NCBI GenBank assembly: GCA_013415695.1 | Contig: JAAEEP010000009.1 | Coordinates: 1-64,000, forward strand | DNA: 64,000 bases | From: Methanomassiliicoccales archaeon | GTDB lineage: Archaea; Thermoplasmatota; Thermoplasmata; Methanomassiliicoccales; JAAEEP01 | Reading direction: 5' to 3' | Part shown: piece by piece, positions 22,368-47,646 of the stretch | How the letters are laid out: each line of letters begins with the position of its first letter | Position numbering within the stretch: the stretch's first letter is position 1 | Position numbers and translations under genes: made by a program | The notes under the pieces: model-generated | Databases searched by the model: none | Told to the model about the DNA's origin: nothing | What the model saw: only the letters and a program-made list of their open reading frames with translations

Positions 22368-22441
22368 GAGCGCACACTAAACACTATGAATATAAAAATG
22401 ATTTGTGAGCCATCCTAGACTCACTTGATCGAACCGATGGA

Positions 22442-23264: not shown

Positions 23265-25541
23265 TCAACCTCTCCTGCGCCTCATCACGACAACTGCAAC
23301 CATCCCTACGACCAAGATGGCGATTACTGTTGCCCATAGGTACCACCCCGGGATCACTCCCACTTCGGCCACATCGACATTGATTGAGGCGTCGTTGTTG
23401 GTCTCATCGAGCTCGCTGGTGGAATTCTGGGGGTCGAGGAGCACCTGGATTTCATGCTCACCTTCTTCCGCAGTCCAGTTAAATGACATCGATACCGTCT
23501 CGTTCACAACGATCTCCTCGATTGTGCCGTTCGCCACCTCATCACCATCCAGCATGAGCAGGACCTTGACTTCCGAAGCATTGACCCGGCCATCGTTGTG
23601 AACATTGATGGTGATTACCGCCTGGTCCCCTTCCTTGAGATCAGTTGGAACGATGCTCAAGTCAGCATCTGAGATGTTCAGGTCAGACCTGTAATATCCT
23701 GCTGGCATCACCTGGATCTGCTCCATGATCTGGTTGTTGTTCTCATTCAGCTCCTCTATCTTGTCATCGGGATCCAGGATGACCTTGATGGTGTGGAGAC
23801 CCTGGAGCGCATTCCAGGAGGTGAACGACGTCTTAGTCTCACCAGGTTCGATCTTGGGAATGAGCTCGAGCTCACCTATCTCCACGTTGCCCCTGAGGAA
23901 CTGCACCTCAACTCCCTTGGCAGTCTTGTTTCCCAGGTTCGTGACCTCCACGCTGATGATCATGGGCTTCATCATCTCGAAGTTCGTGGGCGAGAATGTG
24001 ATGTTCCCCTCGAAGGCAAGGTCTGGCCAGAGCTGAATCTCATTCTCTATCGTCACGGTGATGGATACGATGTTGGAGTATGCCCTGCCATCGTAGGACC
24101 GTGCTTCGAACCTGTACTGCCCATTGAGAACTGTGGAAGTGTTGAAATCAAAGGACCAATTGACATTTCCCTCGATAGACATCCAACCCGAATCATAGTC
24201 GTCGATCCTGACCAGTCTGACCTCAACATCCAGATGTGAATCGTTGTCATCTGGATCGGTCGCGTTCCCCCTGAAGGTCACCCAATCGACTAAGGTATCT
24301 CCATCCCCTGGGGATGATATCTCGCAGAACGGGGGAGCGTTCAGCATCTTGGAGAACAATATGTCCCAGTTCTCTCCTCGATGATCCTCGAACACCACCA
24401 TGGGCGTGTCATTGGCCCCAATGGCAACATCTGGAGCTCCTTGATATGCGGACTCCTCCTCATCGTCTACCCTGACGCTGGAGGAGAAGCTGGTGCCACC
24501 ATCACGAGATAGGGCCCAGCCTATGTGAGGAACGCCCGTCCTCTCGTCCCTGAAAACCACTGACACATTGGCCATTGAGTCAACGCTCACCGATGGATAG
24601 CTCTGGTCGCTTCCAGGGGAAGCATCATCGACTCTGACAGAGGGAAGGAAGCCCCCACCCGACGAGCTAGAAGCCCTGATGTCAAGATCGCCCTCCCTAT
24701 CGTCCTGCCAGACTACTGTCACCTCCCCTGAAGGATGGAATGCCGCATCCGGCTGGTCCTGACGATATCCGGTCAGGCCATCATTCACCTTGAGGTTGGG
24801 AGAGAAACTCTCCCCGGAGTTGTTGGACCATGCACCATAGATGTCCATGAGGGTATCGTCCCTGCTATCGAGCCAGGCCAGGAAGACCAAATCATCCTGG
24901 GCTGCCACCGAGGGAAAGTTCTGGGTTGCATTGGTGGTACAGTCATCAGCCTTGAATGCTGGAAGGAATGAAAGACCCCCATCCATGGACCGGGCGAACA
25001 TGATATCGAGGTCCGTCCCGTTCTCCTGTGCCCAGGCTATGTAGACCATCTCACCCGATACAGCTATGTCCGGGTTGCGCTGAATCTCTGTGAAAGGCGC
25101 TACTTCAATCGCAGGGTGGAAAGATACACCAGAGTCACTCGACATGGCGAACATTATATCGGGCCCATTTGACCCAGCCTCGACCCAGGTCACGAAGATG
25201 ACCCCGGTGGAGTTGACAGCTATCTTGGGCTCGGCCTGATCCTCTCCGCTGTCGTTGACTATCGTCTTCTCGGAGAATGTCGCTCCACCATCATCGCTGA
25301 TAGCAAAGTAGATCGAAGGGGACCCGTGGTCGTCGTACTCTTCCCATGCGACTGATATGTTGCCATCTGGTGCAACAGCTATTGCAGGATTCCTCTGATC
25401 CAATCGAAGGGGGTCCTCGCCACTCACAAGCACATCATCAGAGAAGGATTTCTGAACATCACCCAGCGCTTGAGGCAAAAAGGCAATGGTCGATACAAGA
25501 ATCAGCAGCGCGGTAAGAATAGTGAACGTCCTCCTGAACAT
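23265..25541 (-). CDS. Secreted, membrane-anchored propeller protein with CARDB domains
   Basis: A 758-residue surface protein. A Sec signal peptide (M-F-R-R-T-F-T-I-L-T then a Leu/Ile core) ends near residue 27. A beta propeller follows, built from about six or seven sialidase/BNR-type blades with Asp-box motifs such as S-D-D-G-G-A-T-F, S-M-D-G-G-L-S-F and S-R-D-G-G-T-S-F. Next come an Ig-like domain (about 390-490), two CARDB adhesion-type domains (about 495-610 and 620-715), and a C-terminal helix with an R-R-R-R stop (about 725-755). No sialidase catalytic Arg triad is evident, so binding or scaffolding is likely. GAGGGG before ATG 25541 fixes the start. Confidence 0.8.
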   Translation of the reverse strand: MFRRTFTILTALLILVSTIAFLPQALGDVQKSFSDDVLVSGEDPLRLDQRNPAIAVAPDGNISVAWEEYDDHGSPSIYFAISDDGGATFSEKTIVNDSGEDQAEPKIAVNSTGVIFVTWVEAGSNGPDIMFAMSSDSGVSFHPAIEVAPFTEIQRNPDIAVSGEMVYIAWAQENGTDLDIMFARSMDGGLSFLPAFKADDCTTNATQNFPSVAAQDDLVFLAWLDSRDDTLMDIYGAWSNNSGESFSPNLKVNDGLTGYRQDQPDAAFHPSGEVTVVWQDDREGDLDIRASSSSGGGFLPSVRVDDASPGSDQSYPSVSVDSMANVSVVFRDERTGVPHIGWALSRDGGTSFSSSVRVDDEEESAYQGAPDVAIGANDTPMVVFEDHRGENWDILFSKMLNAPPFCEISSPGDGDTLVDWVTFRGNATDPDDNDSHLDVEVRLVRIDDYDSGWMSIEGNVNWSFDFNTSTVLNGQYRFEARSYDGRAYSNIVSITVTIENEIQLWPDLAFEGNITFSPTNFEMMKPMIISVEVTNLGNKTAKGVEVQFLRGNVEIGELELIPKIEPGETKTSFTSWNALQGLHTIKVILDPDDKIEELNENNNQIMEQIQVMPAGYYRSDLNISDADLSIVPTDLKEGDQAVITINVHNDGRVNASEVKVLLMLDGDEVANGTIEEIVVNETVSMSFNWTAEEGEHEIQVLLDPQNSTSELDETNNDASINVDVAEVGVIPGWYLWATVIAILVVGMVAVVVMRRRRG

Positions 25542-37439: not shown

Positions 37440-38333
37440 CTAGGAGTCAAAGAACGCGGCCAAACCATCTCGAAGGGATATTTTGGGCTTGAAGCCAAGC
37501 AATTTTTCCGACACACTTGCATCTCCCAAGCTGTGCCTTATATCCCCTACCCTGGGGGGCCCATGAACAATCTCAACTGGTCTTGGTGCCACTGAGATCA
37601 CGGTCTCGGCAAGTGCGTTGATCGTCGTAGATTGGCCGGATCCACAATTCATAGTCACGTTCCTGATATTGGAAGTGAGACATGAGCAAATCATGCTGGC
37701 TACGTCCTTGGCGTGAATGAAATCCCTTGTCTGTTCCCCATCTCCCTCAATGGTCAGAGGCATGCCGTTCATCGCGTTCTCAACGAATCGCGTGATTACT
37801 CCGGAATATGGGCTCTTGGGATCCGCTCTCGGAGAGTAGAGGTTGAACGGCCTGATTATGATGTAATCCTGGTCGAAACTCTCCTTGAATGCCCTGACAT
37901 AATGCTCAGCGGATAGCTTGCTTGTGCCGTAGAATGACCTTGGTCGAGTGGGGTGACTCTCGTCGACCGGCAAGTAAACTGGATCCCCATAGACCGCAGC
38001 CGTTGAGATGTGGATGAATGAGGGGACTCCTTCATCATTTGCCGCCTTCAACATGCTGAGCGTGCCGCCCACGTTCACATCCAAATCCCAAGCGGGATCC
38101 TCCGTGCTCCTCACAACGCTTACTTGAGCCGCGAGATGAACTATCGCGTCTGCATCGCGGCAGGCTTCCCTCATGGATACCGTGTCCCTGATGTCCCCAT
38201 CTCTGTGGAAGGGGACGTGCTCCCTTATGCGAGGAGCTACAAGGTCAACCGATATAACCTGGTGATCTCTAGACAAATCTTCCAGCAGGTACGAGCCTAG
38301 TTGTCCCGATCCTCCCGTCAACAGCACCTTCAC
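37440..38333 (-). CDS. NAD-dependent nucleotide-sugar epimerase/dehydratase (GalE-like)
   Basis: A 297-residue extended short-chain dehydrogenase. The NAD motif T-G-G-S-G-Q-L-G-S is at about 6-14, the catalytic S/T is in I-S-T-A-A-V-Y-G-D, and Y-G-T-S-K gives the YxxxK pair. It probably interconverts UDP-glucose and UDP-galactose or a related sugar, fitting the UDP-sugar genes at 29-31 kb. The start is GTG 38333, and a GTGTATAAC box about 25 bp upstream on the same strand implies a leaderless mRNA. It is shorter than GalE (about 330), so another sugar is possible. Confidence 0.82.
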   Translation of the reverse strand: MKVLLTGGSGQLGSYLLEDLSRDHQVISVDLVAPRIREHVPFHRDGDIRDTVSMREACRDADAIVHLAAQVSVVRSTEDPAWDLDVNVGGTLSMLKAANDEGVPSFIHISTAAVYGDPVYLPVDESHPTRPRSFYGTSKLSAEHYVRAFKESFDQDYIIIRPFNLYSPRADPKSPYSGVITRFVENAMNGMPLTIEGDGEQTRDFIHAKDVASMICSCLTSNIRNVTMNCGSGQSTTINALAETVISVAPRPVEIVHGPPRVGDIRHSLGDASVSEKLLGFKPKISLRDGLAAFFDS

Positions 38334-38420
38334 AATCTCATGAATGCTGGACCGAGTTATACACTTTTTCCGACTAATACAGTTTGGAGTATGAGAAATG
38401 AAATGATGGGGGCCGCCCCA

Positions 38421-38513
38421 CTGAGTCCATAGGTATAATCAGGTGGAGCGGGCCATCTGCGCCTCCAATGGTCTCTGCCACTTCTGCGCGAACTTAGGGG
38501 GGTATGGACTCAG
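38421..38513 (-). ncRNA. Candidate structured RNA closed by an 11-bp stem
   Basis: CTGAGTCCATA at 38421-38431 and its exact complement TATGGACTCAG at 38503-38513 enclose 71 nt that is markedly GC-richer than its surroundings. On the minus strand a TATATAAAA-type box (38535-38544) lies about 27 bp before 38513, so transcription would start at the first base of the stem. Inside, AGTGG/CCATT and GGA-GCG/CGC-TCC can form two hairpins, giving a three-way junction. A GGGGCGGCCCC stretch and T-rich sequence follow the 3' arm. No known family was recognised. A 30-codon ORF (38439-38531) covers most of it but begins within 5 bp of the TATA box. Confidence 0.4.
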
Positions 38514-38534
38514 ATACTCATTTGTCATCATTGC

Positions 38535-38544
38535 TATATAAAAG
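38535..38544 (-). promoter_or_regulatory. TATA box of the candidate structured RNA
   Basis: On the minus strand this reads CTTTTATATA, one of the strongest TATA matches in the window. It is centred about 27 bp from the 5' end of the 11-bp stem at 38513. Confidence 0.45.
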
Positions 38545-38840
38545 TCTGATTCAAATTATCAAAGTAGAGAGCGAAAACAGTAGATTATTGTTGGTCGAAA
38601 TTGCGAAAAGTGAATTTCTACTAATGATATCTTCCACTGAACTTACAGGAAGCATCATTGCGATTTGATAACACTGGACAGGGAGAGCGTTCTGAAAGGA
38701 GTTCGATATCGTACGATTGTCGGTATGGACAAATGACGACATCTTTCTAATCTTGAAATACAAATGTTCCAGACTACCTACGATATCTATAAAATAATAC
38801 GACAATTAATGAATTATTCGAATCCTGTACTCCAACAAGA

Positions 38841-38921
38841 TTTATATATGCGAGTCGATGGTGTTTCAATATTAACGGTTCAAATGGCAATGGCCTGACT
38901 GGGCTGTTCCATCAAAGGAGG
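38841..38921 (+). promoter_or_regulatory. acs promoter and leader with strong ribosome site
   Basis: TTTATATAT at 38841-38849 is the TATA box, giving a leader of about 55-60 nt. AATATTAACGGT at 38868-38879 sits at the predicted transcript start; its exact reverse complement occurs in the ArsR-type promoter at 4945-4956. AAGGAGG at 38915-38921 is the ribosome site for ATG 38928. Confidence 0.5.
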
Positions 38922-38927
38922 CTCCGT

Positions 38928-40907
38928 ATGAGCAATGAAAAGACCTTCGAGTCAATTATGGAGGAAAAGCGAAGGTTCGCCCCTCCGAAAGAACTTAGCG
39001 ATCAGGCATACATCGGCAGCATGGAGGAATATGAACAACTCTATGAAGAGTCGATAAGGGATCCACAGGCATTCTGGGAGCAGAAGGCGAAGGAAGAAAT
39101 TGAATGGTCATCTCCATGGGAGAGCGTATTCGAGTGGGATGTCAATGATGCGAAGTTTACTTGGTTCAAGGGCGGCAAGCTCAACGCAACCTATAACTGT
39201 CTAGACAGACACGCGAAGAGCTGGAGGAAGAATAAGGCCGCGATAATATGGCAGGGAGAGCCGTACGAGGACGTCAGGATATTCACCTACCAGCAACTTC
39301 TGCACGAGGTATGCAAGTTTGCCAATGTGCTGAAGAAGTACGGGGTGAAGAAAGGCGATCGCGTGTCATTATATCTGCCAATGATCCCAGAACTGGCCAT
39401 CGCGATGCTGGCCTGCGCGAGGATCGGAGCGATCCACAGTATCGTTTTCGGGGGATTCAGTGCGGATTCACTGAGAGACCGCATCAGGGACAGCGATTGC
39501 TCAGTGTTGATTACATCCGATGGTAGCTTCAGGAGCGGGAAACTCATACCTCTCAAGAGCAACGCTGACATCGCGCTCTCCGCCGAGACACCGGTCACGA
39601 AGGTGATCGTGGTCAAGAGAACCGGCGTACCCGTAGAGATGAAGGAGAAAAGAGATGTCTGGTGGCACGAGGAGATGTCAGATTCCTCTCCGGTGTGCGC
39701 CCCGGAGATCATGGACGCAGAGGATCCGCTCTTCATCCTGTATACCTCCGGCTCGACCGGAAAGCCAAAGGGTGTTCTCCACACCACTGGCGGGTACTTG
39801 CTGTTCACGACTCTCACTTTCAAATACATCTTCGATTACCACGAGGATGACACCTACTGGTGCACCGCCGACATCGGTTGGATCACCGGGCACTCGTATA
39901 TCGTCTACGGTCCACTCTCGGCGGGGGCGACAAGCATCATGTTCGAGGGAGTTCCCACCTATCCTGATAAGGACAGGTTCTGGGAGATAGTGGAGAAGTT
40001 CAAGGTGTCCATCTTCTACACTGCCCCCACCGCAATCAGGTCGCTGATGAGGGAAGGAGAGGAGTGGCCGAACAGGAGGGATCTTTCCTCGCTCCGAGTG
40101 CTCGGAAGCGTGGGGGAGGCCATCAATCCGGAAGCATGGATGTGGTACTACAATGTCATCGGAAAGGGGAGATGCCCGATTGTTGATACATGGTGGCAGA
40201 CAGAGACCGGTGGGATACTCATTACCCCGCTTCCCGGAGCTAACATTCTGAAGCCAGGGGCTGCACTCCGTCCATTCTTCGGTATCGAACCACTTGTTCT
40301 GAAGGACAACGGAAAGCAGGCGGGAGTTAACGAAGGGGGCTATCTCGTCATCAAGAAACCATGGCCAGCGTTGATGAGAACGGTATACGGGCAGCATGAG
40401 AGATTCAAAGAGACATACTGGTCAATGTTCCCGGGCTACTATTTCACTGGAGATGGTGCAAGAGTTGACGAGGACGGCGACATCTGGCTGATGGGTAGGG
40501 TCGACGACGTGATCAATGTCTCGGGCCACAGGATCGGTGCCGCAGAAGTAGAGAGCGCCCTTGTCTCTCACGAGAAGGTAGCAGAGGCAGCCGTGGTTCC
40601 CATGCCTCACGAGATCAAGGGAGAGGCGATATACGCCTTCGTCACTCTAAAGGCTAACGTCGAGGAGAGCGAGGAGCTAAAGAAGGAGCTGGCAAATCAT
40701 GTCAGGAAGGCGGTGGGACCGATTGCCAAGCCTGACGTCATACAGTTCTCCACTTCCTTGCCCAAGACCAGGAGCGGCAAGATCATGCGTCGCATACTTC
40801 GAAAGGTCGCATCTGGAGAATACGAGAAACTGGGTGATACAACGACACTTGCAGATCCTACAGTGGTAAAGAAGCTCATTGAAGCAAGAGTGGGGGCGGT
40901 CAAATGA
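38928..40907 (+). CDS. acsA: Acetyl-CoA synthetase (AMP-forming)
   Basis: A 659-residue AMP-forming acyl-CoA synthetase that activates acetate to acetyl-CoA in the cytosol. The phosphate loop [11 protein letters not shown] is near residue 270, the acetyl pocket W-W-Q-T-E-T-G-G near 420, and the A10 lysine lies in T-R-S-G-K-I-M-R-R at residue 618. That lysine is the residue acetylated to inactivate Acs in other organisms. Length and the N-terminal ACAS_N domain are typical of true acetyl-CoA synthetases. The stop overlaps the next gene by 4 bp. Confidence 0.94.
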
Positions 40908-41581
40908 TCTTTCTCATGCGCCTTTACCCAAAGGATAGCGCGGTTTCCATATGGGAATTCGTGAAGTCGAGGATGCACTCCAGGAAGACCCAAAGGGTGG
41001 AACCCATACTCGTCTCAGTTCAGGAGGAGGCGAAGTGGGTCACCCTGTACCTAATGTCGGACGACGTCGAGGCCATAGGGGACTTCATCGTGAATGATTT
41101 GGGAGAATGCGATGACGTCCTATACACTATGACAGTACCTCTACTCAAGATGGTCTTCCTTCCAGTCTCTAAGAGTCTGCCTCCGGAAACGAAGAGATAC
41201 AGCATCATGATCCGCTGCGACCTGCAGCACTACTACTCGGCATTCAAGAAGGTGATAGATCTCCATCCCAAACCTGGAGTCAACCCCACGTTCTCGGCAT
41301 TCCTTCTGGGCAAGTACGACATTCTGCTGTCAATAGTGGCCGAATCGAGAGAGAAGCTGGACTCCTATGTGGAATCGGCAATCAAGACCATAATGGGGGT
41401 CCGGGAAGTGGAAGTGTTCCCGATCGACAAATCATGGATTGTGGTGGGTGAAGATGACTGGAAGCGGATCCAAAGAGCCATGCTCTACATCCCATCTTGG
41501 ATGACCCACTTCGGGGACGACATGGAGTTCGCATTCTACCTCACGGAAGAGGACATCAGTCTGTCTGGAATGATCAAGTGA
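40904..41581 (+). CDS. Tandem RAM/ACT-like (Lrp ligand-domain-like) protein, no HTH
   Basis: A 225-residue protein co-translated with acs through an ATGA overlap. Residues about 1-90 and 95-180 look like two alpha/beta ferredoxin-like (RAM/ACT) modules. The second is the clearer, with [19 protein letters not shown] then [11 protein letters not shown]. Lrp/AsnC regulators carry such a domain after an HTH, but no HTH is present here. It is probably a ligand-sensing partner of Acs or of a separate regulator. The family assignment is tentative. Confidence 0.55.
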
Positions 41582-41611: not shown

Positions 41612-43483
41612 TCATTTTTCTTCTGACATCAAGTCTATCTGGACGAAGTAGGAACCATCCTCCATCTCAGTCTCGACCTTCAACCCGATAGAGTGGAAAA
41701 CATGAAGCATGGCCGTGTTCTGGGGGAGCACCTCGGCCATGAAGGTCTTAACTCCTCTCTGCCTCGCAATTTGAACCATGTACTCAAGCAGATATTTGCC
41801 TATTCCGCGGTCCTGCCAATCATCACGCACTATGAATGAGACCTCTGCCGTGTTAGATCTCTTGTCCAATAGATACCTGGAAACCGCTATTATCTCGGAA
41901 ACCTCTTTTTCCCTGGCTATCCCCACCAAAGCCATTTCTGTATCATAGTCGATGTTGGCGAAGGGTTGCAGCTCACGGTGGGGCATTTTGATCTTCATTG
42001 CCATGAAGCGCTGATAGATGCTCTTCTCTGAAAGGGAGTAGAAGAGATCCTTTAGCAAGGGCTCGTCGGTGGGCTTCACTGGACGGAAGAATACCTGGAT
42101 TCCATCAAATTCCTCGTAGATCTCCAGCTCGTCGGGATAGGGAAGCCCATGATAAGGGACCTCCGACTGATCCAGGAAGACGTAATTGTGAAACTTGGCA
42201 GCGTGGAGGAGCTGCTCCCGGAACTTGGGGTGAGCGATGTTGATCAGGGCGAGAGCACGCTGCATAATGCTTTTACCGTGAAGCCCCGCCACACCCCACT
42301 CAGTAACAACATAATGAACATCGCCTCGTGTGGTGGTGACCCCAGCACCTTCGGAGAGACGCGGAACGATCCTTGAGACTGCTCCACCTTTGGCCGTGGA
42401 GGGCAGGGCAATTATGGGCTTTCCATTCAATGAACGGGCAGCCCCCCTCATGAAGTCAACCTGACCCCCGAGCCCCGAGTAAAATTGGTAGCCCAGCTGG
42501 TCAGCGCAAACCTGGCCGGTGAGATCCACTTCCAGCGCCGAGTTGATGGCCACCATGTTTTCATGTTTCCCTATAAGACAAGGATCGTTCGTATAGCTAG
42601 ATGGATGGAATTCGATCATGGGGTTGTTATCGATGAAATCATAGAGCTTGCGGGTCCCCATGCAGAATGAGGCCACGATCTTTCCTGAGTGCATGGTCTT
42701 CTTCTTGCCGTTGATAACGCCCTTCTCCACCAGACCGACGATCCCATCGGAGAACATCTCGGTGTGTAACCCTAGGTCCTTCTTGTCAAATAGGTGTCTG
42801 AGAACTGCGTCGGGAATAGCCCCATAGCCCACCTGGATGGTGGACCCGTTCTCCACCAGTTCCGAGACATGGATACCGATCCTGTCCACGATCTCTTCCT
42901 CGCTGTCCTGATTGGGGCTCCATTCCAGCAATGGTTCCTCGCATTCCACGATGTGCTCGATTTCAGAGACATGGATGAAGCTATCACCCAGAGTGCGAGG
43001 CATTGTTTTGTTAACTTCGGCTATTACCACATCGGCCTTATGCGCCGCCGTCTTGGTAATATCGACAGAGACGCCGAAAGAGCAGAACCCATGCTCGTCT
43101 GGGGGAGAGACCTGGATGAGGGCTACATCCACCAAGTAGCGGTCCATACGCAGGAGTCGGTCGATCTCCGAGAGATACACCGGAGTATAGTCGGCTCGAC
43201 CCTCATTCACAGCCTCTCTGACATTGGGGCCTATGAAGAAAGCTGTGGTTCGAAACTCATCCCCAAACCGCTCTTCAGTGTAAGGTGAGAGACCAAGGGA
43301 GAGGGTGTGGATGATTTCGTTATCTGCTAGAGATCCAGCTCTCTCTATCAAAGCCCTAACGAGTGATTGGGGCTCGCCGCAGGCAGTCCCGATGAAAACC
43401 TTCTCCCCCTTCTTGATGGTCGCCACTGCATCATCGGCTGTCTTCAGCTTGGCTCGATACTCCTCCCTCCAGTAATCTGACAA
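41612..43483 (-). CDS. Acetyl-CoA hydrolase/CoA-transferase fused to GNAT acetyltransferase
   Basis: A 623-residue two-part protein. Residues about 1-450 form a class I CoA-transferase of the acetyl-CoA hydrolase/4-hydroxybutyrate CoA-transferase group, with V-G-Y-G-A-I-P-D-A, the catalytic Glu in H-T-E-M-F-S-D-G, and G-L-G-G-Q-V-D-F. Residues about 460-623 form a GNAT domain, with V-R-D-D-W-Q-D-R-G-I-G-K-Y-L-L as its acetyl-CoA loop. The fusion could move CoA between acids and acetylate a protein or small molecule. It converges on the acs operon, so acetylation of Acs is an attractive guess. Similar fusions exist in other prokaryotes. Confidence 0.88.
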   Translation of the reverse strand: MSDYWREEYRAKLKTADDAVATIKKGEKVFIGTACGEPQSLVRALIERAGSLADNEIIHTLSLGLSPYTEERFGDEFRTTAFFIGPNVREAVNEGRADYTPVYLSEIDRLLRMDRYLVDVALIQVSPPDEHGFCSFGVSVDITKTAAHKADVVIAEVNKTMPRTLGDSFIHVSEIEHIVECEEPLLEWSPNQDSEEEIVDRIGIHVSELVENGSTIQVGYGAIPDAVLRHLFDKKDLGLHTEMFSDGIVGLVEKGVINGKKKTMHSGKIVASFCMGTRKLYDFIDNNPMIEFHPSSYTNDPCLIGKHENMVAINSALEVDLTGQVCADQLGYQFYSGLGGQVDFMRGAARSLNGKPIIALPSTAKGGAVSRIVPRLSEGAGVTTTRGDVHYVVTEWGVAGLHGKSIMQRALALINIAHPKFREQLLHAAKFHNYVFLDQSEVPYHGLPYPDELEIYEEFDGIQVFFRPVKPTDEPLLKDLFYSLSEKSIYQRFMAMKIKMPHRELQPFANIDYDTEMALVGIAREKEVSEIIAVSRYLLDKRSNTAEVSFIVRDDWQDRGIGKYLLEYMVQIARQRGVKTFMAEVLPQNTAMLHVFHSIGLKVETEMEDGSYFVQIDLMSEEK

Positions 43484-47238: not shown

Positions 47239-47646
47239 TTGACATCCCGGATTAAGGAAGAGCTCGATGAGGAGTACGAGCGCTTTGCCGACCATTCGAT
47301 CTGGGACAGGACCGAGATTATGGTCGAGGGAGATACTAGGTACTTCATCGCCTGGCTACATTCCACAGAGGGAATCGACGAGATGGTCTCAATCATGGGA
47401 AGATTGTGCGGAACCCTCAAGTGCTTACTCCAGGCCGCATCAGATTTTCAGAAAATTGGTCAGGAAAAGATGGGTAAACTCGAAGCATGGCTGGAAGCCA
47501 AGATAAGTATAGGGACCCGAAGCTCAGACGGTCGAGGTTGCTTCACACTGCGGCTTGACCCAGGGGGCATGCAGGGAGAGACGGTGACCACCTCCATAAT
47601 CTCACCCGAGGGGGATGAGGTGGGGGCCTGCGTCTTCGAGATCTGA
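47239..47646 (+). CDS. Hypothetical protein
   Basis: A 135-residue small soluble protein I do not recognise. The first 30 residues are acidic and helical (E-E-L-D-E-E-Y-E-R-F), followed by a predicted alpha/beta part ending with E-G-D-E-V-G-A-C-V-F-E. The start is uncertain. TTG 47239 has TTAGGGG upstream and a CATATATTGG box at 47198-47207; the longer frame from 47152 overlaps the divergent protease promoter. It abuts the cobalamin adenosyltransferase gene, stop codon against stop codon. Confidence 0.5.
   Translation: MTSRIKEELDEEYERFADHSIWDRTEIMVEGDTRYFIAWLHSTEGIDEMVSIMGRLCGTLKCLLQAASDFQKIGQEKMGKLEAWLEAKISIGTRSSDGRGCFTLRLDPGGMQGETVTTSIISPEGDEVGACVFEI

Follow-up and report, generated by a model that had tools for sequence, protein, structure and literature searches.

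A TATA box facing a GC-rich, apparently non-coding stretch upstream of an archaeal epimerase gene: a candidate orphan small RNA gene in the order Methanomassiliicoccales

The GC-rich element in the intergenic gap at positions 38334-38927 of the window (the whole 64,000-nt stretch of DNA analysed) is tentatively interpreted here as a lineage-specific small RNA (sRNA) gene on the minus strand. It displays a promoter motif, a GC island and predicted folds, and it has no detectable relatives and no coding signal. We favour the sRNA interpretation because a strong TATA box is followed by no open reading frame (ORF) of at least 100 aa until one starts 209 nt downstream, because there are a GC island, a hairpin at 38457-38405 that is more stable relative to shuffles on the minus strand than on the plus strand, and no coding signal, and because a separate TATA-like box stands at about -26 of the downstream epimerase gene. 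The same interpretation is weakened by the lack of relatives, by a missing U4 tract, by whole transcripts that are not unusually stable and by some 50 equally stable places.

The genome that contains the window (1.99 Mb, 41 contigs) is the sole representative of its family among the genomes searched. Its 16S rRNA gene is located at the extreme end of contig C6 and carries GGAATTGGCGGGGGAGC, the archaeal form of a 16S signature; an archaeal 23S rRNA was not found in this genome, despite an assembly completeness rating of 99.6%. An RNA antisense to 16S was considered as an identity for the element and rejected, as the different 16S motif that had prompted the idea is missing from the genome's own 16S and the matches are at shuffle level. 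The gap that holds the element is 594 nt long; on one side lies the epimerase gene, on the minus strand, and on the other a gene for acetyl-CoA synthetase that diverges from it. AcsA-like genes number three in this genome (38928-40907, a C26 copy that is 80% identical and a C13 copy that is 58% identical). The end of acsA is overlapped by an ORF at 40904-41581 with a marginal match to the AsnC ligand-binding domain and an N-terminal part lacking any assignment, and 41612-43483 encodes a 623-aa protein that combines acetyl-CoA hydrolase/transferase domains with a C-terminal GNAT acetyltransferase domain. The features of the gap and its flanks are as follows.

37440..38333, minus strand: NAD-dependent epimerase/dehydratase gene (PF01370, 2.8e-53), downstream of the element and on the same strand
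38357..38364, minus strand: second TATA-like box, GTGTATAA, the centre of its TATAA about 26 bp before the GTG start codon of the epimerase gene
38374-38481, minus strand: 35-aa ORF, a stop-free frame crossing the GC island
38405..38457, minus strand: competing long hairpin, GATGG.CCGCTCCAC... / ...GTGGGGCGG...CCATC, then ATTTCATTTCTC (energy z -3.23)
38406..38421, minus strand: short terminator-like hairpin, predicted to form if the 11-bp stem forms, then a T-rich stretch without TTTT
38421..38431, minus strand: 3' arm of the 11-bp inverted repeat
38439..38456, minus strand: putative five-codon reading frame ATGGCCCGCTCCACCTGA, carried by the 5' arm of the long hairpin, with GGAGG at 38466-38462
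38439-38531, minus strand: 30-aa ORF, a stop-free frame crossing the GC island
38443-38541, plus strand: 32-aa ORF, a stop-free frame crossing the GC island
38503..38513, minus strand: 5' arm of the 11-bp inverted repeat (in the sense of minus-strand transcription)
38535..38543, minus strand: TATA box TTTTATATA, assigned to the proposed promoter, with a start predicted at about 38515-38511
38928..40907, plus strand: acetyl-CoA synthetase gene (acsA), divergent; a separate TATA box for it lies at 38841

The minus-strand TATA box reported in the preliminary description is present as TTTATATA at 38542-38535 within CTTTTATATAG. Its first base is 29 bp, and its centre about 25.5 bp, away from the first stem base, 38513, a distance at which the basal promoter of an archaeal intergenic sRNA would be expected. 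A start at the stem therefore agrees approximately with the TATA spacing, but the suggestion that it falls exactly there does not hold: 38513 is a C, and the nearest purines are A38515 and G38511. Sites of the TTTATAT/TTATATA type occur nine times on both strands of the window, this box being one of the nine, and it is a good one, among the best in the window. The GC-rich stretch behind this promoter is, judging from sequence, probably transcribed. The second box, upstream of the epimerase gene, suggests that the epimerase mRNA may be leaderless and separately started. Elsewhere in the window, a TATA-like box TTTATATTC is found at 22396 (minus strand), with no start of an ORF of 100 aa or more within 250 nt.

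Base composition sets the element apart from its surroundings, as had been stated: its GC content is 0.57 (0.61 in the interior), compared with 0.42 for gaps that are 100 nt or longer, a crudely ORF-based background in which the element's own gap is split in two at a doubtful 84-aa ORF. The GC content of the whole window is 0.51. When gaps are compared by their best 80-nt stretch, the element's gap (0.625) ranks second of 20 and is exceeded by 47507-47646 alone. That 140-nt gap, at the top of the 20 with a GC content of 0.61 and up to 0.66 per 80 nt, might be a missed gene or RNA, as its GC content suggests.

The inverted repeat bounding the element is indeed perfect, with 11-bp arms (CTGAGTCCATA/TATGGACTCAG) that are 100% complementary and a spacer of 71 nt. 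By itself such a repeat is ordinary, because the window contains four perfect repeats of this kind (arms of 11 or more, spacers of 3-150), and 40 Markov-shuffled windows contain 2.55 on average (range 0-6). Inside the 594-nt gap it is less likely: when the gap was shuffled 4000 times, an arm of 11 or more (spacer 20-150) arose in a fraction of 0.0195. The combination of a repeat with a TATA box 22-34 bp upstream is seen once in the window, in none of 60 shuffled windows and in none of 4000 shuffled gaps, although this joint test was devised post hoc, with the feature already known, and is to be discounted. A longer perfect repeat, with 12-bp arms (GTTCACAACGAT) and a spacer of 78 nt, is located at 23502-23603.

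Folded alone, the 93-nt element adopts the 11-bp stem with similar z-scores on the minus (-2.03) and plus (-2.12) strands, so that the fold leaves the strand undecided. When the 3' flank is added, the hairpin at 38457-38405 outcompetes the stem in the predicted fold: the mean pair probability of the stem is 0.98 for a 3' end at 38421, 0.67 at 38405, 0.18 at 38395 and 0.02 at 38380. For a 121-nt RNA, the predicted energies of the stem and hairpin folds are 0.4 kcal/mol apart. The hairpin has a z-score of -3.23 on the minus strand versus -1.21 on the plus strand, and its stability is equalled or exceeded by 3 of 1000 shuffles on the former and by 127 of 1000 on the latter. Whole transcripts are not unusually stable (z -0.79 for 121 nt and -0.39 for 183 nt), and 50 clusters of places on both strands, this hairpin counted, have local folds at least equally stable, in a count that pools genes and gaps. 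With a repeat number near chance and a competing hairpin that displaces it once the 3' flank is folded, the 11-bp stem is not supported as a selected structure, and these models make the earlier fold built on it doubtful.

The G/C arm and T-rich sequence described beyond the 3' arm are found at 38421-38406, without a run of four T, and TTTT is absent from the minus strand between 38534 and 38333. Termination in archaea relies on tracts of four or more U, in most cases with no hairpin, and ends lacking such a tract occur for some archaeal transcripts (PMC8716108). Among the 34 operon-final genes of the window that encode 150 aa or more, 15 have TTTT within 100 nt past the stop codon, against a background of 15% calculated from all 100-nt tiles. 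The discrete transcript of about 93 nt that had been proposed is consequently doubtful, having no archaeal-type U-tract at its end. For the sRNA interpretation, the missing tract lowers the probability but is not decisive, because some archaeal transcripts end without one.

The sequence of events that we propose for the sRNA is as follows. Directed by the TATA box at 38542-38535, RNA polymerase would start near 38513 and produce an RNA of about 110 nt with its 3' end in or just past the hairpin at 38457-38405. The 5' part, in which a CCCCCC run is found, would be single-stranded and the 3' part would form a stable hairpin, an arrangement like that of a trans-acting sRNA. In this scheme the 11-bp stem is an early or alternative fold, replaced when the 3' end emerges. 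Transcription, the position of the 3' end and a regulatory action are what we infer from the features described above.

Searches for relatives of the element returned its own copy as the only credible match at the nucleotide level in its own genome and relatives (61 genomes), in 147 genomes of the order and in 400 genomes of the class. A single-sequence covariance model, run with stricter filters against the 147 genomes, recovered the own copy at 2.4e-31 and next a match at 0.053 per genome, which is at chance level for 147 genomes. Within the order, one other match had an E value below 0.01 (24 nt in G097, 0.0045 per genome), which chance would again produce among 147 genomes. Two class-wide matches, neither of which includes the repeat, are 43 nt inside a 395-aa gene of G350 (per-genome E 2.5e-5) and 28 nt inside a 369-aa ORF of G282 (per-genome E 3.9e-4); over 400 genomes, about 0.01 and 0.16 chance matches, respectively, are expected at these values. 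The sequence of the 369-aa ORF resembles sodium-pump decarboxylase beta subunits. Of the weak matches among the relatives, the seven inspected (loci L002-L008) all fall in open frames that are 150 codons or longer from stop to stop. The phage search yielded only two records of one Lactococcus phage (E 0.6), the plasmid search yielded none, and the exact two-arm pattern was absent from viral contigs. The first 140 aa of AcsA matched 60 loci in the genome contigs, the best 59% identical, thus revealing no close relative. Upstream regions of the epimerase and AcsA genes in relatives showed no shared element; for the epimerase, 19 of 21 relatives were informative, L010 and L030 being wrongly oriented with translations that are not epimerase-like at the start. 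In agreement with the earlier statement that the element matches no familiar archaeal RNA, Rfam, whose families include SRP, RNase P, C/D, H/ACA and riboswitches, gave no match to it at the gathering score (the only match in the window is a tRNA-His), and the best match in the gap region in a permissive Rfam scan had an E value of 0.47. What survives of the new structured RNA suggested in the preliminary description is a TATA box facing a GC-rich, apparently non-coding, single-copy stretch unmatched in Rfam.

A stretch without any functional RNA, neutral or decayed, whose 11-bp repeat and TATA-like run came together by chance, is a serious if somewhat unlikely alternative. The repeat count at chance level, conservation undetected in the order (147) and the class (400 genomes) and the modest fold z-scores (-2.03, -0.79 and -0.39) are all consistent with it, as is a perfect 11-bp repeat in the 420-nt stretch upstream of the epimerase gene in one relative (L014). 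It is opposed by the repeat and TATA spacing found in 0 of 60 shuffled windows (post hoc), by a GC island that is high for a gap and by a hairpin whose z-score of -3.2 is confined to one strand. Still less likely, in our estimate, is a long 5' leader of the epimerase mRNA, transcribed from a second upstream promoter, in which the two exclusive folds could modulate read-through or processing. The element is on the same strand as the epimerase gene and 180 nt upstream of it, and read-through into the epimerase mRNA is possible since no U4 tract intervenes; the closeness in energy of the two folds in the 121-nt RNA, where the position of the 3' end switches the favourite, and a terminator-like site preceding the epimerase gene also fit. 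Against such a leader are the epimerase gene's own TATA-like box at about -26, the TATTTAT boxes seen by eye some 25-35 bp before the epimerase start in four relatives of one genus (L020, L022, L024 and L025), and the lack of a similar element upstream in relatives. Bistable mRNA leaders such as attenuators and riboswitches resemble the element in having two exclusive folds upstream of a gene, one of them with a terminator-like hairpin, and differ from it in that the element has no U-tract of four or more and no known riboswitch match. Highly improbable is a more specific version, a bistable archaeal attenuator that forms the 11-bp stem first and then the long hairpin bearing the MARST frame and its GGAGG ribosome site; a ribosome occupying the MARST codons would hold the RNA in the stem form, thereby coupling translation to downstream epimerase expression. 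Attenuators of this two-fold switching kind are, to our knowledge, unusual in archaea; the studies found concern mostly bacteria.

A small protein gene or the relic of a coding gene is very unlikely. Stop-free frames do span the island, the protein of the G282 gene reads IGGADGP at the 28-nt match, as does one minus-strand frame of the element, and the 43-nt match in G350 falls within a gene; the chance expectations given above for these two matches weigh on the other side. Stop-free runs of at least 29 codons are seen in 97% of shuffles, the six frame scores for codon usage are near or below zero, six small ORFs have no Pfam match, the ATG of the 30-aa ORF is upstream of the predicted start, and the 30-aa peptide has no relative at E <0.1 in the other 60 of the 61 genomes. 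A PDB search with this peptide returned weak eukaryotic matches alone (best E 0.027), taken as chance. A C/D-box guide RNA is scarcely plausible: ATGATGA at 38531-38525 is followed on the minus strand by 11 nt and CTGA at 38513-38510, and there is a sub-threshold match to sR3 (13.8 bits versus a cut-off of 41 bits, E 0.47), but the C box precedes the transcription start implied by the TATA box, inspection by eye revealed no terminal stem, the candidate C'/D pair comes about 50 nt later, and complementarity to 16S does not exceed that of shuffles (2 stretches of at least 8 versus a mean of 2.6). Equally remote is a short mobile element with terminal inverted repeats (MITE), which had been offered as an alternative together with the prediction of copies elsewhere with target-site duplications. 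The element resembles MITEs in the inverted repeat that bounds a short insert at both ends and differs from them in being present as a single copy in its genome and in lacking a target-site duplication beside its arms (flanks inspected by eye). The exact 11-mer arm recurs once elsewhere, unpaired and inside a 560-aa ORF, and matches to the arm with up to one mismatch number 21 versus 29 for a reversed control.

Returning to the sRNA interpretation, a literature search on Methanomassiliicoccales found nothing relevant. A 2018 review (PMC5867862) gives archaeal sRNAs a length of 50-500 nt and reports that only 21% of intergenic sRNAs are conserved among three Methanosarcina species, which makes orphan status ordinary. 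Archaeal transcriptomes contain hundreds of intergenic RNAs, mostly not conserved (PMC5867862 and PMC4983044). If transcribed, the element would add another orphan to these RNAs, from an archaeal family represented by one genome among those searched; it would gain greater importance only if switching between its two folds proved to control the downstream gene. Two archaeal intergenic sRNAs, Methanosarcina mazei sRNA154 and Haloferax volcanii sRNA132, are proven to be transcribed and have known targets or phenotypes (PMC5867862 and PMC6560208), whereas the element is a candidate predicted from sequence. In common with both, it is intergenic, has a TATA promoter of its own and predicted hairpins, and would give an RNA of about 100 nt.
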